Origin: a virus | Strand: one strand, 5' to 3' | Length of the DNA: 36,498 nucleotides | Virus record (IMG/VR): IMGVR_UViG_3300010148_000040 | Coordinates: 1 to 36,498 of that record | Shown here: one piece after another, positions 6,548 through 29,289 of the stretch | Layout of the letters: each line of letters begins with the position of its first letter | Position numbering within the stretch: position 1 is the stretch's first letter | Position numbers and translations under genes: made by a program | Notes under the pieces: generated by a model | What the model was told of the DNA's origin: nothing | The model's database searches: none | What the model saw: only the letters and a program-made list of their open reading frames with translations

Positions 6548-8863
6548 ATGTCTAATTGGTTTGATGTTGTTAAAATCATCGGTATTCCGAGAGGTGCAAT
6601 ATTTGTTTCAAATGTTGTAGTTAATAGAGCCGAGTTTGAAAATACATTAGACAAGTTGAGAAACCTCAAAAAAGTTCCTTCAAGCCTTCAAGGAGTATTA
6701 AATCGGACTAAAAAGACTCATAAAGAGTATTATAATGATGGAGTTAATGCCGCAACTACCGAAGTTGATTTAACAGAAGAAGAATCAAAAGAAATGTTTG
6801 ATGAAATGTTGCAAATTATGGCGGAAAAAACAGAAGAATACACTGAAAGAGAATATTTGAGTGAAAAACAGTTAAATTCTCTTCTTTCTGAAGCCATGAA
6901 AGCAAAAAAAGACAACGATAAAGAGAAAATTTCTCAAATTATTTTAGAAATTACTAAAGAAACTCCTAAAAATAGAGAATGGTGGAGCAAAAGAATCCCT
7001 CAAAGAGATAAATTGCAATTTTTACAGGAATTTTTGGAAGGAAATGAAGAAAGGTCGCACCTTGTCTTTGAAGATTCTTCTTCAAATGAAGAAATTTTGC
7101 AAAATTTTGCAGAATTAGTTGAAGGAACAGTGGAAAATGGAAAAATTTTCTTTAATGTCAATAAAATTAAGACTTATAACGACTTTATACGATTTTTACG
7201 ACCAAGTAAAGAAGAACAAAAGAAATTTTTAGAGTATAAAGAGAATAATGATGGAAAAAAGAGTGATGAAGAGAAAGTTTATGATAATCGCTTCAAAATT
7301 TATAATGAAACCATAAGACCGTTGAAGCCTGAGTTTATGGAAGGCGAACAAGCAAAGAAAATTGACCCAAGAGATTTAGCAGCAAAGGAATTAACTATTA
7401 GAGATGCTAAATATGAAATGGCAGGAACATTTAACGAGCGTTCTTTTGAAAGATACATAGAAATTGTTGCAGGATTAAAAGGTTCTTTGAGAATGTGGTT
7501 GCCTAATGAGTTTGAAAACGGAAGTGCTATACCTCAAGGGCTTATTTTTGTACCAAGACAATCAAAAAATAAAAAATCTTTAATTTTGAATCCTTATGCA
7601 TCTATTACAGTGTTGAGTGATTTTTCAGGAGAAAACTGGTTTAATACCTTTTTTGATTCTTTAAGAACTAATGAAGTATTAACAGACGATGAAGTAGAGC
7701 AATTACTTATTGATGATATTTCTAATGCTTTGATAGAAGATAAAGAACAAAGCCGTTTAGGATTTAGAAGCGCAAGTTTTTCAAGAATACAAAAAGTAAG
7801 AAATTTAATTATAAATCCTCCTAAACAACAGAAAAAAAGATTAAATGAAGTTATTAGACAAATTATATCTGAAAGTCAAGGTGAAGGTAATTTAGGTGAA
7901 GAAATTACTCAAAAGAAATTAGATATTAGAAGAGAGCAACTTTCTCTATTACAAAGATACTTTACTATAAAAGAAGGAAAAAAGATTAAGTCTTTATTAG
8001 ATGAACAATATGATGATGATGACATTAAAGTAAAATATTTTGATTCTTCAGGAACACTGATAGAAGAAATTGAAGGAGATGCTGGGGCATATAAAGAAAG
8101 AGTCTTAAATGCTGTTTATGTAGAATTTGAAATGTTTGATGATGAAGATACAGTTGTTAATCAAGAAAACTTTAATGATTGGGTAAATACTAATTTAACT
8201 GAAGTTAAAAAGCCAGTTGGTAAAAACCCAACAAGAGGTTTAGAAATAGCCTTAAAAGAAGTAGAGCAAGCATTAGAAAATCTACCGAATGTTGAAATGG
8301 CTGATGAATTTAGAGTAAAAAGAAAGAAAAAACTTGAAGAAGATATTTCAAGAATTAAACAAAGTATTGAAGATAGAAAAAGTAAACCTGTTTCACAGGA
8401 AGTAACTAATAAAGTTCAAGAGTTAAGAGATTCACTATTAAGACCTACTGACTTTGTTAGTTTTATTCAAGCACTTGGTTCAAAGGAGTCACTAAATGAT
8501 ATAATAGATAAGAAGATTGATTCGGCTAAAGTATTAGACCAAATTACTCCAAAAAACAGTTTATTGTTCTTTGATAAGATGGCTCAACGGGTGTCGGGTG
8601 ATGAGATAGGAGAAGCGTTTAATAAAATAAACGATAACCCCAATTCAGATGAGGCGAAAGCAATCCTTATTGAGTTAGATAAGAAAATGCCTTCATTATT
8701 ACAGACTTGGAAACAAGAAATAGTAAAAGCCTTTGAAATTAGATTAAAGTTCTTTTTGGATAATTATAAACAAAAATTCCAAGACAAAACAAATAAAAAA
8801 CAAGTTTCTCCCGCAATAAATGGATTTTTAAGAGCAGGTATGATACAAGAGGTTAGAACATGA
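6548..8863 (+). CDS. large tagged protein, 771 aa
   Basis: ATG 6548 is placed 6 bases after GAGGT. The N-terminus MSNWFDVVKI is the tag with one extra residue. The protein is long, Lys/Glu/Asp-rich and mostly helical, with a central part that looks more globular (residues about 300-400, containing RMWLPNEF and QGLIFVPRQSKNKKSLILNP) and coiled-coil stretches later (LEEDISRIKQSIEDR). I see no polymerase, nuclease, lysozyme or protease signature. Size, position and tag suggest an internal virion protein, perhaps ejected with the DNA as in podophage core proteins; this is inference. It overlaps the next gene by ATGA. Confidence 0.65.
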   Translation: MSNWFDVVKIIGIPRGAIFVSNVVVNRAEFENTLDKLRNLKKVPSSLQGVLNRTKKTHKEYYNDGVNAATTEVDLTEEESKEMFDEMLQIMAEKTEEYTEREYLSEKQLNSLLSEAMKAKKDNDKEKISQIILEITKETPKNREWWSKRIPQRDKLQFLQEFLEGNEERSHLVFEDSSSNEEILQNFAELVEGTVENGKIFFNVNKIKTYNDFIRFLRPSKEEQKKFLEYKENNDGKKSDEEKVYDNRFKIYNETIRPLKPEFMEGEQAKKIDPRDLAAKELTIRDAKYEMAGTFNERSFERYIEIVAGLKGSLRMWLPNEFENGSAIPQGLIFVPRQSKNKKSLILNPYASITVLSDFSGENWFNTFFDSLRTNEVLTDDEVEQLLIDDISNALIEDKEQSRLGFRSASFSRIQKVRNLIINPPKQQKKRLNEVIRQIISESQGEGNLGEEITQKKLDIRREQLSLLQRYFTIKEGKKIKSLLDEQYDDDDIKVKYFDSSGTLIEEIEGDAGAYKERVLNAVYVEFEMFDDEDTVVNQENFNDWVNTNLTEVKKPVGKNPTRGLEIALKEVEQALENLPNVEMADEFRVKRKKKLEEDISRIKQSIEDRKSKPVSQEVTNKVQELRDSLLRPTDFVSFIQALGSKESLNDIIDKKIDSAKVLDQITPKNSLLFFDKMAQRVSGDEIGEAFNKINDNPNSDEAKAILIELDKKMPSLLQTWKQEIVKAFEIRLKFFLDNYKQKFQDKTNKKQVSPAINGFLRAGMIQEVRT

Positions 8864-11382
8864 CATATACTGATAATGAATTAGATAGAATCATATCTTT
8901 GACTGGAAAAGCATTGGCTGATGCTAAAAAGAAAATAATAGATAGGGAAGTTGATAGACTTACATTAGAAGCACAAAGAAGCGATGATGAAATAAAAGCC
9001 CGTGAACTTATCCCTACTAAAAGAAAAAAATATAAAGATGGATTAAATCAGGCCATTAAAGATAGAAAGAAAGAAACTGGTAAATCAGCAGGACAACTCA
9101 ATGTCTTGGCTAAAATTATTGACATGAATATTTTTCACAACGGTAATCTTATTTCAGCAGCAACTCTCGTTGAAAATGATTTAACTGGTAGAATAGATAT
9201 TAGAAACCCTAAAAAGAATATTTTTGATAGTGGAGCATTCTCAAAAGAATTAGGTGCTTCTGGTAATTTAGGTAAGAATTTAAACAGAATCAAGGATATT
9301 ATTGATGAATTGAATACTGAGGTTAAAGATGTTGAAATAAACAGCACTTTTCCTATTGATAAGTTTTTAGGTTCTGTTGATGCTTCTAAAGGAAAAAACA
9401 GAAAAGAAATTTATTCTTATTGGAAAGAAGTAGCAAACAAATTTACAACATTACAAAAAGATGCAGAAGATTTGATTAAAGCCATTGATGATGATGCTGA
9501 TTTACCCGAAGAATTAAAAAGTGAGTTTAATCGCATAATTGATTTAGATGACTTTAATAGATTACAATATGTTGCACAATTTCCTATTGCTAAAGGAGAA
9601 GTTCTTGAAGCAAGACATCGTTTCTTCAATATTGTAGCCGCATTAATTAATGCTGAAAGATTATTTGATAGGCAAACTGTTTCAGGAAAAGGATTTTCTG
9701 ACGATGATGGGGGAGAAGGAGATGTTAATGCTCAATTAATGCGTGAGCAAGCCGAAGCGATTGAAGCGGCAATAGATGATAATTTAGGATTCAATTCAAA
9801 AGACCCTTCTCAAAATACTACGCCTAAAGGCTGGAATGATGAAATGAATGACCCCCGAATGAAACTATTAGATGATGGCGTTAGTTGGTTAGAAGATGTT
9901 TCAACTTTACAAGCCCAAGCCGACCCATTATTAATGTATGAACATAATAAAGGAAATAAACTCGTTTCTATGACTACTGAAGGGGAAGATGATTTAGTTG
10001 CTCTTTTAGGTGATGCTATTGATGAAATTGAAGAAGCAGAAGAAAGAGATGGAAAAAGAATTACTTCTTTTACTACTTCTTTAGACTTTAAAACAGATAT
10101 TGAAAATTGGTTAGACCAAACAGCAGATACTACTACTTTACCAAATGATATTGAATATTGGCTTCCTATATCAGTTATGCAAAATGCTGACTTTGATGAT
10201 TTATACCCATCGGAAAGATACTTTGATGGTATTAATGGTTATGAATTTGTTCAAGTGTCCGATTTAAAAGAAATAGAGGAATTTTTTGATGAATTATATC
10301 AATTGCTCTCACAAGGAATGATTGCCTTTGCAACAGATATTAGAACCTCAAAAGGCAGAAGAAGAGGAACTGATATGAGAGAAACTCTTCGTGGAGTTAG
10401 AACAAATAGAAATCTTGCAACTGCAAAATTAGTGGGAGCAGCAAAAAGACAATACAGAAAAGTTGATTCAGTAGAATCAAAATTAAAAGAAGATTTACTT
10501 AGTGAAGGAATAAAAGGTGCTTTAGAAAGATTTTTAGAATCTTCTTTAGATTATTTCTTTACTCCTGCATATAGCGGAAGAATGACTATTCAAATACCAA
10601 GTTTTGTAGGTAGTATGGGAGGAAAAGTCATGCAAACTCTTTCTCTTGATTTAGGGCTTGAAACAGTTATGTCGGGACAATATAAAAAATTAATGAGAGG
10701 TTCTGCTGCTTCATTCAAATCTGCTGATTTATCCAATATTGCTGACTTTTTAGAAAAAATCTTTTTGAAATCTATGAAAATTGATATTAGATTAATTACA
10801 GAAGGAGAAAGAGCAGCAAGGTCAATGACTAAAATATTCAAGAAAAAGGAAGAGAATAATAATTATTTTGCTGGTTTAATTCATCACTTTATGGTTGAAA
10901 CTGGAGATAGGAAAAGAGAAAATGCTAAGTTTAATGGTGTTTCTATCAAGGAAAGGGCTGAAAGATTTGATAAAGGATATGCTTCAAGAAAAGCATACCC
11001 TATCTTTGCATTACCTCATTGGTTAGACCTAAATCAAGGTTTAATTACACAAAAGAGTCCTAAATCAAAAAGACAATATAATAGATTAAAAAACATATTT
11101 GAGCAAGTTCAAGAAGATTTACCTGTTCTTATTCATAAAATGTTAAAGGCTCATGATGCTATTCGTGAACAATTAGGATTGCCAGTAGTTCACGGCTTTT
11201 TGCCTTTAAATAATATAGGATATGATACTATTATTAATAAGATGCAAGTAGAAGAAAATCTTGATTTAACTTCTTATGAGATAGAAAGCATTGTTAAAAT
11301 GCTTGACTCTCATCAAAATATTTCAAATGAATTTGGTATTAGTAAAGAACAAGTATATACAATAAAAGCACACTTTAGGTGA
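8860..11382 (+). CDS. very large hypothetical protein, 840 aa
   Basis: ATG 8860 overlaps the stop of the 771-aa gene by 4 bases. There is no terminal tag (MTYTDNELDRIISLTGK). The protein is charged, largely helical and contains low-complexity acidic spans (DDDGGEGDVNAQL, DAIDEIEEAEERDG). A segment near residues 560-600 (FFTPAYSGRMTIQIPSFVGS) looks globular and beta-rich. No known motif is recognised. Coupled translation with the tagged 771-aa protein suggests the two act together, perhaps as a complex in which only one partner carries the tag. Confidence 0.6.
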   Translation: MTYTDNELDRIISLTGKALADAKKKIIDREVDRLTLEAQRSDDEIKARELIPTKRKKYKDGLNQAIKDRKKETGKSAGQLNVLAKIIDMNIFHNGNLISAATLVENDLTGRIDIRNPKKNIFDSGAFSKELGASGNLGKNLNRIKDIIDELNTEVKDVEINSTFPIDKFLGSVDASKGKNRKEIYSYWKEVANKFTTLQKDAEDLIKAIDDDADLPEELKSEFNRIIDLDDFNRLQYVAQFPIAKGEVLEARHRFFNIVAALINAERLFDRQTVSGKGFSDDDGGEGDVNAQLMREQAEAIEAAIDDNLGFNSKDPSQNTTPKGWNDEMNDPRMKLLDDGVSWLEDVSTLQAQADPLLMYEHNKGNKLVSMTTEGEDDLVALLGDAIDEIEEAEERDGKRITSFTTSLDFKTDIENWLDQTADTTTLPNDIEYWLPISVMQNADFDDLYPSERYFDGINGYEFVQVSDLKEIEEFFDELYQLLSQGMIAFATDIRTSKGRRRGTDMRETLRGVRTNRNLATAKLVGAAKRQYRKVDSVESKLKEDLLSEGIKGALERFLESSLDYFFTPAYSGRMTIQIPSFVGSMGGKVMQTLSLDLGLETVMSGQYKKLMRGSAASFKSADLSNIADFLEKIFLKSMKIDIRLITEGERAARSMTKIFKKKEENNNYFAGLIHHFMVETGDRKRENAKFNGVSIKERAERFDKGYASRKAYPIFALPHWLDLNQGLITQKSPKSKRQYNRLKNIFEQVQEDLPVLIHKMLKAHDAIREQLGLPVVHGFLPLNNIGYDTIINKMQVEENLDLTSYEIESIVKMLDSHQNISNEFGISKEQVYTIKAHFR

Positions 11383-21743: not shown

Positions 21744-21757
21744 TCGGGGTGGTATTA

Positions 21758-24271
21758 TTGAAACTCGGTTCTATTGAAAAGGATAGGCAACCTTCTATTG
21801 AGTTGATGCGGCTTTTTGAAAAAACAAGAGTTGCTTATTTATCAGCCGTTCAAGACCCCGATGAGTATTCGGGTCGTTGGCGTAAAGCCGTTGATATGAT
21901 AGAAGAATCCTATGAAGAATTAGATGCCGCAGGTAAAGAGTTAAAGAATTTTATTAGGGAAGAAGAAATAACTGATAATGATGTTAAAGACCCTGAATCT
22001 TCTAAAGCACAGAACCTATACGAAAAAATTAAACTCGTTAGGTATAACTCAAAGATTATTGCTGACCCTTTTGCTGAAATGTTCAAAGGGAATGTTCTTG
22101 AAGAATTATTAGATAATCCTGAAAGTATGGTTAAATTTGTCCATTATGCTATGAGGGAAGATAATAAAGCACTTTCCGATGAAGTTTTAGCCATTAAAGG
22201 TATGCAACCCGACACAATTACGGAGGGTCTTATGGGGCTTGACATAGAAGTGGACGATATACCCCTCTATATTATTGAGCATTACGGTGATGGAAAAGAC
22301 TCAAAAAAGGTTGAAAAGAAAGTAAAGGCTGCTCTTGATATGTTAGAACTTATTTTCTTTTCTCAGCATGAAGAAGAAGAATGGGGAGAACTTAAGGATA
22401 TTGATATGCAAAAGTCCGAAGAAGAAAAGTCCGAAGAAAAGTCCGTTAGTGATTTTATTATTCCTAATAAACCAATGTATCGCATATTTGAAATTAATGA
22501 TATTAATGAATTAAAGGGATTTAGCGGAAATTGGTATATTCAAGAAAAGTATGATGGTATGAGAGTTCAATTGCATAAACTTGATAATAGAGTTAAAGTT
22601 TATTCTTTTAATGAAAAAGACATTACTGATAAGTGTGAAGATATAGTTAAGGAATTAAAAAAGAAAGAATATGGAGATTGTATGTTTGATGCTGAATTAG
22701 TTCTTTTTGATGAAGAAGAACCACTACATCGTGCAGATACTATTGCTCATGTTTTTAAAGGTAAATATAAAGATGCTAAATTAAAGTGTCATGTATTTGA
22801 TATTATGCGACATGAAGCACAGACATTACTTGATGAAGAATTAGAAAATAGAATGACTATTCTATTCAATAATTACGCTGCTAAATCATCTGAATATTTA
22901 AATTTCCCTTCAAAGAAAGATACAAGACAGGCTGATAGTTTAAAAGATTTAGAAGAATATGCAAAACAAATTATGGAAATGCCTACATCTGAAGGAGTTG
23001 TAATTAAAGATGCTACCTCAACATATTATGTTGGAACTAAAAAGAATCCTAAGTGGATTAAATTAAAAAAGTTTGTTGATTTAGATGTTATTGTTTTAGA
23101 CAAGAAAAAGACTAAAAGTAATCTTTATTCTTATAATGTTGGTGTTGGGCCAATTCCTGAAGATATGAACGGTAAAGAAATTGACGGAAGAAAATATCTT
23201 GATGTAGGAAAAGCATTGAATACAAAGGTCGCAGTAGATATTGGCGATATAATTAGAGTAAAGGTTGATGAAGTAAAGAAGAAAGGAGATGGATTTAGTT
23301 TATTCTCCGCTAAAGTAATTGAAATACCTGAAGTAGAATATCCTGATAAATTAGTTACTTTAGAGTTATTGTCAAAAGATACTAAAAAATCTTTAAATTA
23401 TAATGTTGAAGCATTTAAAAAAGGAGTAAAAATTACTGATAATATTCATGGAGAAACTACTGCTATAATTAAATATGATACAAATGGTTTTGTAGTATAT
23501 GGTTTTGAAGAGAATAATTTAATGTCTAAAAATGCTTTAGCAGATTTAGATATGTGGAAGGCTCAAGCAGAAGAAATAATGAAAACAAAGCAAGGAGAAT
23601 TAACTGTTGCTATTTTTAATTATTTACAAGAAAAAGGTGATAAAACTCCTAAAGATGTGCATGATTATCTAAAAAGAGATTTTACTGAATTATATGAAAC
23701 AGTATTAGAATCTAAGCAAAGAAAGTTAGGTAAGTGGGCGCAAGAAAGAGAACACATTAAAATGATTGATGATAAATTACACGCTGACCCTACAATTAAA
23801 TTGGCTGATGGTGAAGAAATTAAAAAAGAGTATAAAACTCCAAAAGAATACAGGAATGGTAAATTCAAAATATATAACCGAGAAGATAATAGAGTTCATT
23901 TAGCCATTAGTATAAACAAAGAGAATCTTAATTGGACTATTGATATAGAAAATGAAGAAGAGTTATTTGATTTATTTGGTGCGGCTGGTAAATATCCAGC
24001 AGAAGTTTCAAAGAATGTTGAAAGAGGAAAAGTAATTGATTCCGGAGATATTGAACTTGGTGTGCAAAAAGACGGTTATCACGAATATTTCTTAAAAGGA
24101 AATAAGTTTGAAACTAAAATGCATATTAGAGTAATTCCTATTGATAATAAACCTATGTGGTTAGCATGGACGGGGTATAAACAAGAACCTGCCGATACTG
24201 AAAACGATAAAGGAAAATGGAATATATACGAAGATAGGTATAATAAATTGTCCATTCCTACCGAAGATTAG
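21758..24271 (+). CDS. ATP-dependent DNA ligase with extra N- and C-terminal domains, 837 aa
   Basis: It joins nicked DNA using ATP. TTG 21758 is favoured since GGGGTGGT (21746-21753) is its ribosome binding site; GTG 21749 lies within that site. Ligase motifs appear in order: motif I EKYDGMR with the nucleophilic Lys at about residue 264, FDAELVLF (motif III) near 310, EGVVIKD (motif IV) near 412 and WIKLKK (motif V) near 433, then an OB-like region (GDIIRVKVDEVKKKG). The first 240 residues are an unrelated helical domain with an acidic repeat (KSEEEKSEEKS). The last 130 residues form a separate domain (HLAISINKENLNWTIDIE, WLAWTGY) that faintly recalls the LigD phosphoesterase fold. Location inside the head gene block is unusual. 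Confidence 0.88.
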   Translation: MKLGSIEKDRQPSIELMRLFEKTRVAYLSAVQDPDEYSGRWRKAVDMIEESYEELDAAGKELKNFIREEEITDNDVKDPESSKAQNLYEKIKLVRYNSKIIADPFAEMFKGNVLEELLDNPESMVKFVHYAMREDNKALSDEVLAIKGMQPDTITEGLMGLDIEVDDIPLYIIEHYGDGKDSKKVEKKVKAALDMLELIFFSQHEEEEWGELKDIDMQKSEEEKSEEKSVSDFIIPNKPMYRIFEINDINELKGFSGNWYIQEKYDGMRVQLHKLDNRVKVYSFNEKDITDKCEDIVKELKKKEYGDCMFDAELVLFDEEEPLHRADTIAHVFKGKYKDAKLKCHVFDIMRHEAQTLLDEELENRMTILFNNYAAKSSEYLNFPSKKDTRQADSLKDLEEYAKQIMEMPTSEGVVIKDATSTYYVGTKKNPKWIKLKKFVDLDVIVLDKKKTKSNLYSYNVGVGPIPEDMNGKEIDGRKYLDVGKALNTKVAVDIGDIIRVKVDEVKKKGDGFSLFSAKVIEIPEVEYPDKLVTLELLSKDTKKSLNYNVEAFKKGVKITDNIHGETTAIIKYDTNGFVVYGFEENNLMSKNALADLDMWKAQAEEIMKTKQGELTVAIFNYLQEKGDKTPKDVHDYLKRDFTELYETVLESKQRKLGKWAQEREHIKMIDDKLHADPTIKLADGEEIKKEYKTPKEYRNGKFKIYNREDNRVHLAISINKENLNWTIDIENEEELFDLFGAAGKYPAEVSKNVERGKVIDSGDIELGVQKDGYHEYFLKGNKFETKMHIRVIPIDNKPMWLAWTGYKQEPADTENDKGKWNIYEDRYNKLSIPTED

Positions 24272-24315: not shown

Positions 24316-25521
24316 ATGTCATCTGCGGTAATGTCAAACAATACTCATGATTTCAGGATTCTTAAAAGCGATAACTTGATGATTGGAGGATATGCAAGCA
24401 TTGAAATCGTTGATAAACAAAATGATTTAATCACACTCAAGGCTCTTAATGAAGCAGTAAACAAATATATGGAGAACCCTAAGTTTAGAAATGTAATGAC
24501 TAATCATTCAAATGTTCAAGTTGGGGAAGTAGTAAAATCATATAGAGATAAAACAGGGAGATTATGGAAAACAGAAGTTGATGATGTTGGATTCTTTGTT
24601 GTAATTAAATTAAGAGATGATATTGAAAAAGCCAAAGAAATAAATAGAGGCATCAGAAAAGGTTCATTAAGGTCGTTTAGCATTGGAGGGCAAGCATTAC
24701 AGAAAGTAAAGAAAAACCACCCAGAATTAGGCGAATTTAATGAAATAAGCAAACTTGAACTACATGAGGTAACTATCTGTGAAAAAGGAATTAACCCTGA
24801 AGCAAAGTTTGATATTCTAAAACAAGACAAAACAAAAAATAAGGTGAAAACTATGAGTAAAATTGAGAAAGCATTGGAAGAGTTAGACGCATTAATGGCT
24901 GAAGTTAATACTCTCCGAAAAGAAGATGAAATGACAGATGAAAAGCAAATGCCCGAAGAAGAGAAAATGGGTGGCGAATACATGGACGAAGAAGAAGATA
25001 TGATGCCTGAAGAAGAAAAAGGCGGATATAAGGACATGGAATCAAAAGCCCTTCTTTCAACTCTTGACGGTGCTGGTGTTGAAATCGGTGAACCTGCGGA
25101 TAGAATTGTTATTGACAATGGAAACCCAAAGGCTTCTGATTTGCCAGTAGTTAAGGCATTTAACAACAAAGAATTAGAAACACTTGATTTGAGCGTTGCT
25201 AATATTGAGAAGGCTTACGAGGCTTTCCGCCAAGAACAACTTGAAAAGTTGGCTTACGATAACCTTCAAAAGCAATTTGAAAACCGATTTGCTCATGAAA
25301 GGTCAAACCGTGAGAATGTTCTTGCAAAATCACAATATGACGCACAAAGCGAAATTGTTTCACTTAAAGAAGAATTTACTGCTTTAAGAAAGTCTTTGAC
25401 GGCTGAAAAGGAAACAATCCTAAAAGCACAAGAAGAAGCAAATATTAAACTCCCAACAATGGAACAAATGGCTGAATTAGATTGGTCAGATATTCATAAG
25501 ATGGTTGGAGGATTTAACTGA
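24316..25521 (+). CDS. prohead protease fused to scaffold, 401 aa
   Basis: A protease that matures the procapsid, joined to the scaffold domain. Residues about 10-170 match the S78 (HK97-type) family: GGYASIEIVDKQND at the start, MTNHSN with catalytic His64, SLRSFSIGG with the Ser (120 or 122), and LELHEVTICEKGINPEA, the typical end of the domain. From about 180 the chain is acidic and helical (MPEEEKMGGEYMDEEEDMMP) with a coiled coil, as in delta-domain scaffolds. It ends LDWSDIHKMVGGFN, the same peptide as at the N-terminus of many accessory proteins. An internal start at 24853 with its own binding site probably yields free scaffold. Confidence 0.88.
   Translation: MSSAVMSNNTHDFRILKSDNLMIGGYASIEIVDKQNDLITLKALNEAVNKYMENPKFRNVMTNHSNVQVGEVVKSYRDKTGRLWKTEVDDVGFFVVIKLRDDIEKAKEINRGIRKGSLRSFSIGGQALQKVKKNHPELGEFNEISKLELHEVTICEKGINPEAKFDILKQDKTKNKVKTMSKIEKALEELDALMAEVNTLRKEDEMTDEKQMPEEEKMGGEYMDEEEDMMPEEEKGGYKDMESKALLSTLDGAGVEIGEPADRIVIDNGNPKASDLPVVKAFNNKELETLDLSVANIEKAYEAFRQEQLEKLAYDNLQKQFENRFAHERSNRENVLAKSQYDAQSEIVSLKEEFTALRKSLTAEKETILKAQEEANIKLPTMEQMAELDWSDIHKMVGGFN
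24853..25521 (+). CDS. nested scaffold protein from an internal start, 222 aa
   Basis: Within the protease-scaffold frame, AAGGTGAAAACT directly precedes an in-frame ATG at 24853 (MSKIEKALEELDALM), exactly at the junction between protease and scaffold. This binding site is as good as those of genuine genes in the window. Nested scaffold starts within protease genes are known from phages (for example Nu3 within C of lambda). The product would be an acidic coiled-coil scaffold ending in the WSDIHKMV peptide, made in excess over the fused protease. Inferred, not proven. Confidence 0.65.
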   Translation: MSKIEKALEELDALMAEVNTLRKEDEMTDEKQMPEEEKMGGEYMDEEEDMMPEEEKGGYKDMESKALLSTLDGAGVEIGEPADRIVIDNGNPKASDLPVVKAFNNKELETLDLSVANIEKAYEAFRQEQLEKLAYDNLQKQFENRFAHERSNRENVLAKSQYDAQSEIVSLKEEFTALRKSLTAEKETILKAQEEANIKLPTMEQMAELDWSDIHKMVGGFN

Positions 25522-25532
25522 GGTGATTTATT

Positions 25533-26918
25533 ATGACAGGATATATTAACACAATTGGAGATTTAGAAGCACAAACATACGGATTAACAGGCCATACTGG
25601 TATTAACAACCAATTGCTTAAGCAAGCAGGTTCTATTGCTGGATTGCATACAGGCCATGACGCTGCTTTAGGCGTATCAACTACTAATTCAGCAGGAGCA
25701 GCAAGTTCACTTGGTGCTTTGTATAATCAAGTATATGGACAAAAAGTGTGGTCTATGCTAAACAGGGAATGTAATGCACTTTCCGTTATTTCAAAGAGGC
25801 CATACACTTCAAGCGGTTGGAGAGTATTAAGTGAGCGACCTGCGGGTGGTAGCGGTAATTTCCTTGATTTAACAGGTGTAAATCGTGCTACTGATGCTGA
25901 TTCTATTGGTAGTGGTACAGAAAACAGCCAAGTAGCGGGAACAATGCGACCAGATTTAATTGGTGGTGTTCCTGAAAATGCGGCTCTTTCAACTCCTGCT
26001 GACGGTTTAGCGTCTATTGCTCCAAAATACGAGCAATTGTTCACAAGTCCAAAGATTGTTGCTCATCAATTTGAGTTTAGCGAATTGGCTATGGAAATGG
26101 CGCAAATTGACGATGGAATTGGCGATATTAGAGCGCAAATGAGAGAAGATATGGGTAAACACCATGCTGAAACTCAAAACGCTATGCTTGTTATGCCTCT
26201 TGAAAACTACAATTTATCGGCTACAAACCAAATTGGAAACATTCAAAGAAACTATACTTCTTTGATGAAGGTTGTTTCTTCTAAGAGCGAATTAGACGCT
26301 ATGGCTGCTGGAACTGTTTTAACTGCATCAAACTCAGGTGTTGCTGCTATTGAATCTATTTACGGTAAGGCTCGTAGTGCTTCTTCATTCCTTGATGCAC
26401 AGGTTGATTTTGGCGGAGTTGGATATGGAAGTGCAAATTCTCGTCAATTAACACTAACTGTTCTTAATAAGACTCTTAGAGACTTGAGAGTTGCAGGTGG
26501 TTCACCAAAGGTTATTCTAACTGGATATGATACACTTCAAACTATTTCTGACTTATTGCAAGCACAAGAAAGATTTATGGATAGAAAAGAAATTGTTCCG
26601 ACTGTAAACGGTGTTCGTGGTGTAAAGGGTCAAGAAGTAGGATTTAGAGTTTCAACTTACTATGATATACCTATGATTCCTGTTGCGGCTATGCCTTCAA
26701 CTGGTGCTGATACTTCTTGTATTAGTGATATGCTTTTCCTTGATACAGACCATTTGTGGCTATCTGTTATGAAACCAACTCAATACTTTGAAGATGGTAT
26801 TTCAAACGGAAACCCATTCGGTGTCGGCCATCTTGGAAACAAGGCTCTTTATAGAACAATTGCGGAAGTTGGCTGTTCATACTTTAAAGGTCAAGGTAAA
26901 ATCACAAACTTGCTTTGA
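25533..26918 (+). CDS. major capsid protein (HK97-type by context), 461 aa
   Basis: ATG 25533 follows the strong GAGGTGATTTATT site. It lies directly behind the prohead protease-scaffold, where HK97-fold capsid genes are found, and its length is typical. The sequence is rich in Ala, Gly, Ser and Thr with long mixed segments (VWSMLNRECNALSVISKRPY; MEMAQIDDGIGDIRAQMRED as a candidate spine helix; LWLSVMKPTQYFEDGISNGN near the end). There is more GC-rich, evenly chosen codon use than in neighbours, as expected for the most expressed gene. Fold assignment rests on context plus general appearance. Confidence 0.85.
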   Translation: MTGYINTIGDLEAQTYGLTGHTGINNQLLKQAGSIAGLHTGHDAALGVSTTNSAGAASSLGALYNQVYGQKVWSMLNRECNALSVISKRPYTSSGWRVLSERPAGGSGNFLDLTGVNRATDADSIGSGTENSQVAGTMRPDLIGGVPENAALSTPADGLASIAPKYEQLFTSPKIVAHQFEFSELAMEMAQIDDGIGDIRAQMREDMGKHHAETQNAMLVMPLENYNLSATNQIGNIQRNYTSLMKVVSSKSELDAMAAGTVLTASNSGVAAIESIYGKARSASSFLDAQVDFGGVGYGSANSRQLTLTVLNKTLRDLRVAGGSPKVILTGYDTLQTISDLLQAQERFMDRKEIVPTVNGVRGVKGQEVGFRVSTYYDIPMIPVAAMPSTGADTSCISDMLFLDTDHLWLSVMKPTQYFEDGISNGNPFGVGHLGNKALYRTIAEVGCSYFKGQGKITNLL

Positions 26919-26928
26919 GGTGTTTTAA

Positions 26929-27306
26929 TTGGGATTAGAATATACAATTAGGGCATTACCCGACCATAAAGGGTTTTCAAAACCAAAGGCAATTGGCGAT
27001 GAATACATGGTTGATGTCGCTTTAGACATTACAAAGCATATTGCCGCAGGTGCGGAAATTGACGCTAGTAGAGTAGGATTAAAAACTATTCATGCAGTAT
27101 TGATTACAGGATATGAAGGAAGGACTTTCACCGCAAATGTTCTTATTGGCGCAGGTGGAGCAAATCCTGATGTAGCAGGTAATTATGAATCAGCAACTTC
27201 ATTTAAAGTAGTAGTAACCAATTTAGACGGAACAAACGCTACTGCTGCTGCTAATGATGCAGATGTTGGTTGTGCTTTGCGATTAAGAATTTTTGGCTCA
27301 CTTTGA
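26929..27306 (+). CDS. small capsid-associated protein (decoration-like), 125 aa
   Basis: It uses TTG 26929 behind GAGGTGTTTTAA. The sequence is strand-rich (EYTIRALPDHKG, VDVALDITKHIAAGAEI, TIHAVLITGYEGRTFTANVL) with small residues, like a beta-sandwich virion protein. Placement right after the major capsid protein suggests a head decoration or stabilisation protein. No sequence family is recognised, so the role is from position only. Confidence 0.55.
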   Translation: MGLEYTIRALPDHKGFSKPKAIGDEYMVDVALDITKHIAAGAEIDASRVGLKTIHAVLITGYEGRTFTANVLIGAGGANPDVAGNYESATSFKVVVTNLDGTNATAAANDADVGCALRLRIFGSL

Positions 27307-27315
27307 GGCGATAAA

Positions 27316-27642
27316 ATGGCTTTAGTCACATTATCTGATACAGGCGGGTTTGAACCTTTAAATGTTAGAGGCTACCGTGTTGAAAGAGGGATTCAAACAC
27401 AAATACCTGCTTTACAGGCTCTTTTCCGTTGTAGTGATAAAAACCTAATGTTTACCTTTGAAGAGGCAGATAGGAAAGATTTAGAATCAGTAGATGCTGA
27501 ATTATTTCCTTCTGTTTCTTTGGAGTTAGGAAAAACAATCACTACTAATAAAGAATTAGTTGATTTACTCTTACCTAAGAAAACAACAACAAAGAAGAAA
27601 ACTGCTCCTAAAACGAGTAAATCTTCTTTAGTGAAAGAATGA
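27316..27642 (+). CDS. small virion-region protein with Lys/Thr tail, 108 aa
   Basis: ATG 27316 behind GAGGCGATAAA. The first 80 residues look globular (GFEPLNVRGYRVERGIQTQI, FEEADRKDLESVDAELFP). The last 30 are a low-complexity KKTTTKKKTAPKTSKSS tail, probably disordered and able to contact DNA or acidic surfaces. It is placed between the decoration-like gene and a hairpin-containing gap. It may be a head protein; no family is recognised. Confidence 0.55.
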   Translation: MALVTLSDTGGFEPLNVRGYRVERGIQTQIPALQALFRCSDKNLMFTFEEADRKDLESVDAELFPSVSLELGKTITTNKELVDLLLPKKTTTKKKTAPKTSKSSLVKE

Positions 27643-27648
27643 ACCGAT

Positions 27649-27676
27649 ACGATTAATAGGGTGCGCCCTCAATCGT
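27649..27676 (+). other. intergenic hairpin after the capsid block
   Basis: ACGATT (27649-27654) pairs with AATCGT (27671-27676), and inside them GGG pairs with CCC around TGCG. It occupies one of the few gaps (27643-27697) in the operon. It could attenuate or partly terminate the abundant capsid transcript, or protect its 3' end after processing. There is no T-run directly behind it. Confidence 0.5.
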
Positions 27677-27697
27677 TATTTGGCGGAGAGATGAAGT

Positions 27698-27985
27698 ATG
27701 CCGAGTTGCAGAAGTAGTGGATTATTAACAGAAAATACCCAAGTATTTACCGGACAATGTAAATTAGTTTCTATTCATGTTGTTGCTGATGATGGAAGTA
27801 AAGTCTTAGTGAAGGTTTTTGACGGTACTTCAAACACTGATAAAGAAGTTTGTAGGGTTGCTGTTCCTGCAAATCAATCATTTGAAATGGATTTGCATGG
27901 AATTATTATGTCTAAAGGTATTTATTATGAAGAAATAAAGACTGGCGGTAATGGTGATGCTTCAACCTTCATTAACTTCGCTTGA
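27698..27985 (+). CDS. small beta-rich protein, 95 aa
   Basis: ATG 27698 behind GGCGGAGAGATGAAGT. The protein is strand-rich (CKLVSIHVVADDGSKVLVKV, FEMDLHGIIMSKGIYYEEI) with a Cys-Ser start and ends in TFINFA. It resembles the small beta-barrel or beta-sandwich proteins of phage heads and tails that bind as trimers, but no family can be named. It follows the hairpin gap and precedes the membrane-protein genes. Confidence 0.55.
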   Translation: MPSCRSSGLLTENTQVFTGQCKLVSIHVVADDGSKVLVKVFDGTSNTDKEVCRVAVPANQSFEMDLHGIIMSKGIYYEEIKTGGNGDASTFINFA

Positions 27986-27994
27986 GGTGATATT

Positions 27995-28387
27995 ATGGCG
28001 GCTTTAAATACAGATACACGATTAGTTATGACTATTCTTTTTGTTGGTGCATTAAGTGGAGCAAATGTCTTTGCTTATGCTCAATTCGGAACTGGTTTTC
28101 CTTATGGCCCAATAGCGCATTCAGTCTTATTCGGATTAGGAACAATAGGTGCAATAATGGTAATGAAAGCATTATTTGATTTAGCACTTAATGACAAAAT
28201 AGAGATGTGGCTACTGGATAGAAAAATTGCTGCTTATTGGGAAAGAAAAGCAAGAGATGAACAACAAAGACAAAAAATGCGAGAAAGCGCAAGACAGTTT
28301 GGTGGTTCAACACCTTTCTATCAACCCCAATTGCAGGAAGAAGATTCTAATGCCGTTGGTAGTGAGTTTTTAGCCACACTCCAATAA
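27995..28387 (+). CDS. two-span membrane protein, 130 aa
   Basis: ATG 27995 behind TGAGGTGATATT. Two hydrophobic segments are visible: about residues 10-31 (LVMTILFVGALSGANVFAYA) and 39-63 (GPIAHSVLFGLGTIGAIMVM and on). They are followed by a long charged, soluble C-terminus (IAAYWERKARDEQQRQKMRE). This predicts a hairpin membrane anchor with a cytoplasmic or virion-interior tail. A membrane protein in the middle of a head-tail gene block is unusual unless it acts at the host envelope. It probably functions with the following membrane protein and GTPase. Confidence 0.65.
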   Translation: MAALNTDTRLVMTILFVGALSGANVFAYAQFGTGFPYGPIAHSVLFGLGTIGAIMVMKALFDLALNDKIEMWLLDRKIAAYWERKARDEQQRQKMRESARQFGGSTPFYQPQLQEEDSNAVGSEFLATLQ

Positions 28388-28401
28388 TAGGAGTTGGTTA
28401 A

Positions 28402-28620
28402 ATGGTTTTTGGCGATTTGATGGGTTTTTCCGACTCGGATTACGCTTATAATCAAACAAGGGCGCATTCTGCTGATATTTTCTTTTTGAAAATGAGAGCA
28501 TGGTTTTGGGGTTCTTGTGTAGGATTATCTGCTTTTCTTATTGGTAATATAATGGGTGTTTTTGATATAAACATCATGGGTTGGATTATTAGTGCGGTGA
28601 GTGGTTTATGGGGGCATTAA
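28402..28620 (+). CDS. small membrane protein, 72 aa
   Basis: ATG 28402 behind AGGAGTTGGTTAA. A polar N-terminus (MGFSDSDYAYNQTRAHSADI) is followed by one or two hydrophobic segments, about residues 33-50 (FWGSCVGLSAFLIGNIMG) and 54-70 (INIMGWIISAVSGLWG). The stop codon abuts the ATG of the GTPase gene, so the two are almost certainly co-translated. Likely membrane partner of the GTPase; the family is unknown. It could also be a holin-like protein by size, but the context does not favour lysis genes. Confidence 0.6.
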   Translation: MVFGDLMGFSDSDYAYNQTRAHSADIFFLKMRAWFWGSCVGLSAFLIGNIMGVFDINIMGWIISAVSGLWGH

Positions 28621-29289
28621 ATGTCATTAATGACAGGATTCGCCATATTAGTTGGTGAGGCAGTAATTGGTTTTTGGAAAAAAGTCCATGCGATTAACTT
28701 TGGTGTTTATGGGGCAACAATGGTAGGAAAAACTACATTAAGTCATCAATTAAGAACAAGGGGAGAAGTGCCGACAATACAAGAAAGAACAGTTGGATTA
28801 CATAGAGCCTCAAGAAAAAATGTTAAAATAGATGGAGATTCACATACAATTAAAAGTGCTGATATTGGAGGAGAAGCGATTTACTGGAAAGAATGGGTAA
28901 AAGATATGCAAAAGCGTAAAGTAAGATATATTATTTTTATGATAGACCATAGACATTTAGATAACAATTCAAATTTAGACCATCAAGTAGCATGGAAATT
29001 TTTAGTTGATACGATATGTTCAGATTTTTGGCCTACTGGGAGAAAAAAGAGAGAACCCGATTATCCAATGGCGATAGGAATATGGGCTAATAAATACGAC
29101 ATTTGGGGAGAAAAATATCCATTAGCAGAAGGACAAACCATAGATAAACATGAAATATTTGAACCATTTAAGTATGGAATGAGGCAATTAAATGATAAAG
29201 GAATACCTTGTTTTAAATATATAGTTTCAGCAAAGTCAGACCCCGAAATGGTATATAGAGGCGTAATGACAATGATAAAAGATTACTGA
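28621..29289 (+). CDS. Arf/Ras-like small GTPase with hydrophobic N-terminus, 222 aa
   Basis: All five GTPase motifs are present in order: G1 GATMVGKTT (31-39), a candidate G2 Thr in PTIQERTVG (51-59), G3 ADIGGEAIYW (D81-x-G-G, as in the Arf/SR-beta group rather than the Ras DTAGQ), G4 WANKYD (N157-K-x-D160) and G5 SAK (203-205). The first 20 residues (MSLMTGFAILVGEAVIGFWK) are hydrophobic or amphipathic and could anchor it to a membrane, much as Arf N-termini do. The 34-residue stretch between strand beta-4 and G4 includes a basic insert (GRKKREPD). It lies behind two membrane-protein genes. A GTP-driven switch in a virus late gene block is unusual. Confidence 0.82.
   Translation: MSLMTGFAILVGEAVIGFWKKVHAINFGVYGATMVGKTTLSHQLRTRGEVPTIQERTVGLHRASRKNVKIDGDSHTIKSADIGGEAIYWKEWVKDMQKRKVRYIIFMIDHRHLDNNSNLDHQVAWKFLVDTICSDFWPTGRKKREPDYPMAIGIWANKYDIWGEKYPLAEGQTIDKHEIFEPFKYGMRQLNDKGIPCFKYIVSAKSDPEMVYRGVMTMIKDY

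Follow-up and report, generated by a model that had tools for sequence, protein, structure and literature searches.

The window analyzed here, namely the whole 36.5-kb stretch of DNA (36,498 nucleotides) of IMG/VR record IMGVR_UViG_3300010148_000040, is part of the genome of a Magrovirales-like virus and has a G+C content of 30–38%. Its late genes include a small GTPase gene that is preceded by the genes of two small, putative membrane proteins (referred to as TMa and TMb) and followed by those of a Zn-motif protein and a helical Q-rich protein (Table 1). The three open reading frames at 27995–29289 are as the first-pass annotation described them: TMa and TMb are separated by 14 bases, TMb and the GTPase by 0 bases, and the TAA stop codon of TMb (28618–28620) directly abuts the ATG of the GTPase gene. 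Their placement in a virion gene block likewise holds, the terminase, portal, protease, and SU10-type capsid protein genes being located on the same strand as the GTPase gene. To that annotation we add the two genes at 29300–29965 and 29968–30618, the likely group of hosts, and the change in position of the module among clades.

Table 1. Coordinates of the five-gene module and of late genes around it in the window.
Feature	Position	Strand	Remarks
Prohead serine protease	24316–25521	+	Peptidase_S78, 36.6 bits
HK97-fold (SU10-type) major capsid protein	25533–26918	+	Pfam SU10_MCP, 27 bits
TMa, 130 aa	27995–28387	+	Two predicted TM segments (about 10–28 and 43–61); charged C-terminal tail
TMb, 72 aa	28402–28620	+	About one hydrophobic segment
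Arf/SR-beta-type small GTPase, 222 aa	28621–29289	+	G1–G5 motifs
Zn-motif protein, 221 aa	29300–29965	+	CVVC ... GTYCPKH
Helical Q-rich protein, 216 aa	29968–30618	+	Last gene of the module; homologue in clade 2, same place in clade 3
Head-completion/neck-type protein	32932–34245	+	Downstream of the module; HCTV-1 homologue, E 2e-13

The HCTV-1 homologue of the neck-type gene is located in the block between the capsid and tail genes, and the clade-2 homologue shortly follows the capsid gene. Immediately past the capsid gene, three small genes (26929–27985) evolve much faster than their neighbors (dN/dS 0.38–0.47) and may encode decoration or head-completion proteins. Furthermore, an 840-aa protein with an ATP-dependent DNA ligase domain is encoded between the portal and protease genes (21749–24271), and a protein of 1825 aa occupies the matching position in clade 2.

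Viral Origin of the Window

Relatives of the GTPase were collected by two scans of IMG/VR, of which the first returned 187 confirmed relatives and the second, with an alignment, returned 256; among the matches listed, their identity to the queries was 78–100%. All 15 large records (92–185 kb) of the window's clade, clade 1, carry a PolB split into two pieces and a Cpn60 chaperonin, and the clade-2 records (91–107 kb) carry an unsplit PolB in 10/10 cases. The ICTV profile of the Aoguangviridae (Magrovirales) lists genomes of 90–100 kb with 31.5% G+C, PolB-NTD/CTD, a chaperonin, an ATP-dependent ligase, and an HK97-fold capsid, and gives the Druskaviridae as more distant kin (PMC10768690). Magrovirales were recognized here as tailed archaeal viruses of 90–110 kb with a PolB replication set, a chaperonin, and a DNA ligase; the near-complete relatives agree with this in PolB and, for clade 1, in the chaperonin, and the ligase is found in the window itself, a 36 kb fragment. 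The best named relative of the capsid protein is that of HCTV-1, a haloarchaeal virus of the Druskaviridae (tblastn, E 1e-18). A bacterial phage was ruled out, since the best named kin of the capsid protein are archaeal viruses and the near-complete relatives carry archaeal-virus replication genes. From the literature on Magrovirales, rather than from the window, we infer that the host belongs to the marine Poseidoniales.

Structure and Classification of the GTPase

The first-pass annotation claimed complete G1–G5 motifs, and all five are found in the window protein: G1 GATMVGKTT (31–38), the switch-I Thr57, G3 DIGGE (81–84), G4 NKYD (157–160), and G5 SAK (203–205). Among 207 homologues compared, which fall into two main clades (105 in the window's clade and 102 in clade 2), GxxxxGKTT, the switch-I R-T, DxGG, Trp at D+8 and D+11, and NKxD are kept without exception, but G5 deviates outside the window's clades, where SAK is replaced by AT[RK] in clade 2 and by an SAQ-type sequence in clade 3. 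The invariance of these motifs, the low dN/dS of the gene, and its recovery by pattern search rule out a chance or mis-called open reading frame. The window protein has Trp92, and Glu85 occupies the position of the catalytic Gln; Glu is found there in 105/105 members of the window's clade, and clade 2 has Gln in 83, Glu in 10, Asp in 7, and His in 2. Because the Q61E substitution in Ras raises intrinsic hydrolysis, Glu at this position need not indicate a dead enzyme.

The hydrophobic N-terminus noted in the first-pass annotation is retained in part: a helix at residues 3–22 is predicted (pLDDT 52–61), but it is only moderately hydrophobic, with a Kyte-Doolittle maximum (1.63) below the 95th percentile of shuffled sequences (1.76). 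The helix is G/A-rich and weakly amphipathic (hydrophobic moment 0.15–0.39), and is weaker in clade 2. Membership of the myristoylated Arfs was ruled out by the absence of Gly2, as the window protein starts with M-S and no member of the A5 alignment starts with M-G.

An AF2 model of the GTPase (pLDDT 76.5, pTM 0.76), used in place of an earlier model built from clade 1 alone (pLDDT 52.6), shows the topology of a small GTPase, to which a further helix is added at the N-terminus. The best fold matches are LokiRagO and Arl6, tied at Z 15.3, followed mostly by Arl1, Arf1 (14.8), Arf6, and G-alpha, with SR-beta at 13.9; Arf, G-alpha, and Rag are within 1 of the top and a mimivirus Rab is 1.1 below it. 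As differences in Z under 1 are treated as ties, the fold favors the Arf/G-alpha/SR-beta/Rag side but is not decisive, and Rab33 (5e-9) and Rab1 also rank high when Foldseek matches are sorted by E-value. The A4 profile search placed SR-beta at the top (E 5e-4, over positions 104–182 only, about the strand-4-to-G4 part), followed by 8oun, Rab33, and Arl8/10, and the broader A5 profile placed 8oun at the top (E 5e-4) once RecA concatemers, whose matches reflect repeated P-loops in a fused construct and were ruled out, had been set aside. The 8oun alignment sets DLGGQLHFRNLW opposite the DIGGxxxxWxxW of the family. A Foldseek match, 8oum, is entitled "Arf GTPase from the asgard Gerdarchaea: GerdArfR1," and by our reading of its number and sequence 8oun belongs to the same set.

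Pfam matches to Roc, MMR_HSR1, Ras, SRPRB, and Arf are weak and mixed, and are below the curated cut-offs wherever a score was shown, including Gtr1_RagA at 21.0 bits (cut-off 22) in one clade-3 member and SRPRB at 20.3 bits (cut-off 25) in one clade-1b member. In the PHROG search no family fits the GTPase. An unrelated P-loop ATPase, the outcome that would have spoken against the first-pass annotation, was ruled out, since the weak PHROG matches to Sak4 and guanylate kinase cover the P-loop and the best profile matches are small GTPases instead. The DxGG[QE]-x6-W sequence is a signature of Arf and G-alpha proteins. Signature, profile search, and predicted fold thus agree with the first-pass annotation in supporting a small GTPase of the Arf/SR-beta type, an assignment that is made from these three rather than from a tree and keeps Rab within reach. 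By its anatomy the viral protein is a predicted Arf-type switch, and we classify it no further than as a new family of small GTPases in Magrovirales.

Distribution in Viruses

A profile search found the GTPase in 18/18 near-complete magrovirus-type records, with 17 single genomes each carrying one copy and the record L045 carrying two. This 184,733-bp record, in which not only the GTPase gene but also the chaperonin is present twice and PolB is in four pieces, appears to consist of two joined magrovirus genomes. By the same search the GTPase is absent from HCTV-1, HCTV-2, HGTV-1, and a Methanomassiliicoccales virus, and its absence from these four archaeal tailed viruses argues against a general component of heads or tails. 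Clade 2 was found by the spacing pattern of G1 and G3 (29–35% identity), and a profile scan confirmed 218 members; clades 1b and 3 were added by a DxGG-x4-W-x2-W pattern in DNA, which matched at least 120 stretches and yielded 115 open reading frames, all of them family members.

The first-pass annotation regarded small GTPases as rare in tailed viruses, which is consistent with the database searches: the best 50 matches among viral structures (BFVD) are proteins of giant eukaryotic DNA viruses by name, apart from one unnamed, and neither 50,697 phage records nor plasmids yielded a match. A search of genome collections with clade-1 peptides as the query, with distant homologues outside its reach, returned a single match, on a 12-kb magrovirus-type contig (L082, NZMJ01000024.1) in a metagenome-assembled genome (MAG) labeled Maricaulis sp.; a cellular copy was rejected, the contig being probably mis-binned. 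The literature searched, in which coverage of magrovirus papers is incomplete and an earlier annotation is possible, contains no description that pairs a magrovirus with a GTPase, and the combination of Poseidoniales, virus, and GTPase retrieved only a review of Asgard archaea.

Conservation and Relocation of the Five-Gene Module

The order TMa (two TM segments), TMb (one), GTPase, Zn-motif protein, and helical Q-rich protein is fixed in four clades. In all 94 clade-1 loci with enough flanking sequence, TMa, TMb, and the Zn-motif gene surround the GTPase, and the Q-rich gene is nearly always next; positional counterparts of the TMa–TMb pair are found in clades 1b, 2, and 3, so that the membrane neighbors on which the first-pass annotation relied recur in relatives. 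The TMb stop and the GTPase start overlap or are at most 2 nt apart in most clade-1 genomes, an arrangement as in translational coupling. The order in clade 2 is TMa–TMb–GTPase–(AbrB-like)–Zn–Q-rich, and clades 1b and 3 lack the AbrB-like gene, which in L182 (6752–6976) encodes a small AbrB/MazE-like protein (20.7 bits, below the cut-off). Downstream of the clade-2 module, L182 also encodes a two-TM protein of 82 aa (8588–8836) and a protein that combines a helix-turn-helix with Cys/His motifs (9140–9823), both of which are also found in clade 3.

Comparison of clades 1 and 2 by hhalign links the GTPase (E 1e-32), the Zn-motif protein (2e-8, with a shared GTYCPxH), and the Q-rich protein (1e-4), and the Zn-motif protein is further detected in a near-complete clade-2 genome (hmm E 1e-6). 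The profile link between the TMa proteins is weak (E about 0.003) and profile-profile comparison detected no homology between the TMb proteins of the two clades; therefore, TMa and TMb are matched across these clades only by position, size, and TM content. Transmembrane segments were predicted from hydropathy only. With respect to the membrane segments reported upstream of the GTPase, those of TMa are firm by column shuffles (4/200 and 0/200) and that of TMb is firm in clade 2 (3/200), but in clade 1 the TMb segment does not exceed what composition predicts (26/200).

The module moves as a unit between genome positions. It is located between the capsid and neck genes in the window's clade, and in the clade-2 genome G016, which keeps the terminase–portal–protease–capsid–neck order, it is found at 8.5–12 kb, 7 kb before the terminase gene and more than 20 kb before the capsid gene. 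That the genes were relocated together argues for one function. Among ten late genes, the median dN/dS is lowest for the GTPase (0.078), followed by TMa (0.107), the protease (0.139), the Q-rich protein (0.140), TMb (0.161), the Zn-motif protein (0.173), and the capsid protein (0.209). GTPase distances track those of the protease (Mantel r 0.59) and the capsid protein (0.46), with 0/999 permutations in each case, as expected under mostly vertical inheritance.

Comparison with Known GTPase Systems

The Asgard Arf-related GTPases (8oum, 8oun) and eukaryotic Arf/Arl proteins share with the viral protein the fold, DxGG with Trp at D+11, a GKTT P-loop, and an N-terminal helix before the G domain. 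By contrast, the viral GTPase has only ~15–20% identity to them, lacks Gly2, has Glu for Gln in the window's clade and, in clades 2 and 3, an insertion between switch I and strand 2, and is accompanied by its own membrane-gene partners. SR-beta (5ck3, 7obq) resembles it in the A4 profile ranking, the fold match, and a hydrophobic N-terminus before the G domain, whereas the profile match is partial and the module has no recognized SR-alpha/FtsY partner. The Rag/Gtr proteins are represented by LokiRagO (8yl2) among the tied best fold matches and by the near-cut-off Gtr1_RagA score; unlike them, the viral GTPase has no C-terminal roadblock-type domain, and a Trp at D+11 is not known to be characteristic of Rag proteins.

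The small GTPases of giant viruses are also virus-encoded and include Arf types (L111, L113, L126) and Rab, Ras, and Ran types, whereas they belong to viruses of eukaryotes, have sequences close to cellular families, and to our knowledge are not part of a membrane-gene module. The three Arf proteins L111, L113, and L126 are of the eukaryote type (PTIGFN, DIGGQ) and are encoded on further IMG/VR contigs that probably belong to giant viruses.

ArvA of Haloferax is an Arf-like GTPase with a hydrophobic N-terminal helix; it is needed for vesicle formation and drives the budding of vesicles, and its operon carries ArvB and the Zn-ribbon protein ArvC (PMC10927574). By description, the two systems share an archaeal Arf-like GTPase, a hydrophobic N-terminal helix, a Zn-binding operon partner, and candidacy as membrane remodelers, whereas the viral module has two membrane-protein genes upstream and a different Zn-motif protein, for which no OapC match was found. 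ArvB (OapB, PF09846) and ArvC (OapC, PF09845) were absent from all 21 virus genomes searched with models that were both positive in a Haloferax volcanii control, and membership of ArvABC is thereby ruled out. The viral module may instead be a counterpart, in logic and not in genes, of the ArvA-driven vesiculation of euryarchaea.

Predicted Function of the Module

We favor, with confidence and doubt in about equal measure, a GTP-controlled five-gene membrane module that would act late in infection in egress or membrane-linked assembly. On binding GTP, the switch and interswitch regions and the N-terminal helix would rearrange and the GTPase would dock on TMa and TMb at the cytoplasmic membrane of the host; the membrane-bound GTPase would then recruit the Zn-motif and Q-rich proteins, and the module would deform or organize the membrane for virion egress or for assembly linked to it. 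Hydrolysis of GTP would reset the GTPase, and the Zn-motif protein may act as a regulator that promotes this step. The invariant motifs, the predicted fold, the constant membrane neighbors, the joint relocation, and the functional precedent of ArvA speak for this proposal, and the weak N-terminal helix, the poor match of TMa and TMb between clades 1 and 2, and the absence of ArvB and ArvC speak against it. A bolder form of this proposal, which we put forward only tentatively and consider doubtful, is that Magrovirales possess their own GTP-driven membrane-remodeling machine, independent of ArvABC, by which the virus exits from or assembles on the archaeal membrane through Arf-like vesiculation or a coat, the GTPase being an archaeal-virus branch of the Arf/SR-beta/Rag lineage.

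The late position of the genes is equally compatible with a virion component. In an entry role, TMa and TMb would be packaged or tail-associated and inserted into the host membrane at DNA delivery, with the GTPase loading or orienting them during assembly; the location of the module inside the capsid-to-neck block of the window's clade agrees with this, and small TM proteins together with a Q-rich helical protein may resemble delivered proteins in general make-up. However, the clade-2 module lies upstream of the terminase gene and away from the capsid and tail genes, and the related HCTV-1 makes a tailed virion without the module GTPase, and we consider an entry role unlikely. Control of lysis, with TMa as a holin-like protein, TMb as an auxiliary or anti-holin, and the GTPase timing or localizing the opening of the membrane, is suggested by the two TM segments and charged tail of TMa, the small one-TM TMb, the late operon, and the lack of a recognized classical lysis gene in those window proteins that were scanned. 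Rapid evolution is usual for lysis genes, whereas TMa and the GTPase have the lowest dN/dS of the ten late genes; moreover, no holin system that includes a small GTPase is known to us, which leaves this role quite improbable.

SR-beta-like targeting, in which the GTPase would be a membrane receptor that guides viral membrane proteins during their insertion or offers a docking site to the SRP/FtsY or ribosomes of the host, draws on the SR-beta matches in profile and fold, and is very improbable given that the profile match spans part of the domain, that the module has no recognized SRP-receptor-like partner, and that the signature is that of Arf and G-alpha. Least probable of all is a host-takeover or superinfection-exclusion module at the membrane, which would fit the movable, independent character of the module and its dispensability in related tailed viruses, whereas accessory genes are usually patchy and this GTPase is present in every near-complete magrovirus-type record searched and is subject to stronger purifying selection than the other genes of the block.

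Perspective

In eukaryotic cells, small GTPases have a central role as switches of membrane processes, and the archaeal roots of such switches are a live question in view of the Arf-type GTPases of Asgard archaea and of ArvA. The GTPase described here would be the first of its kind known in tailed viruses, as far as found, and the viruses that carry it appear to infect abundant ocean archaea. A GTP-controlled membrane module of five genes would provide a compact GTPase–membrane system from archaea and a handle on how the viruses of the uncultured Poseidoniales exit from or assemble in their hosts.
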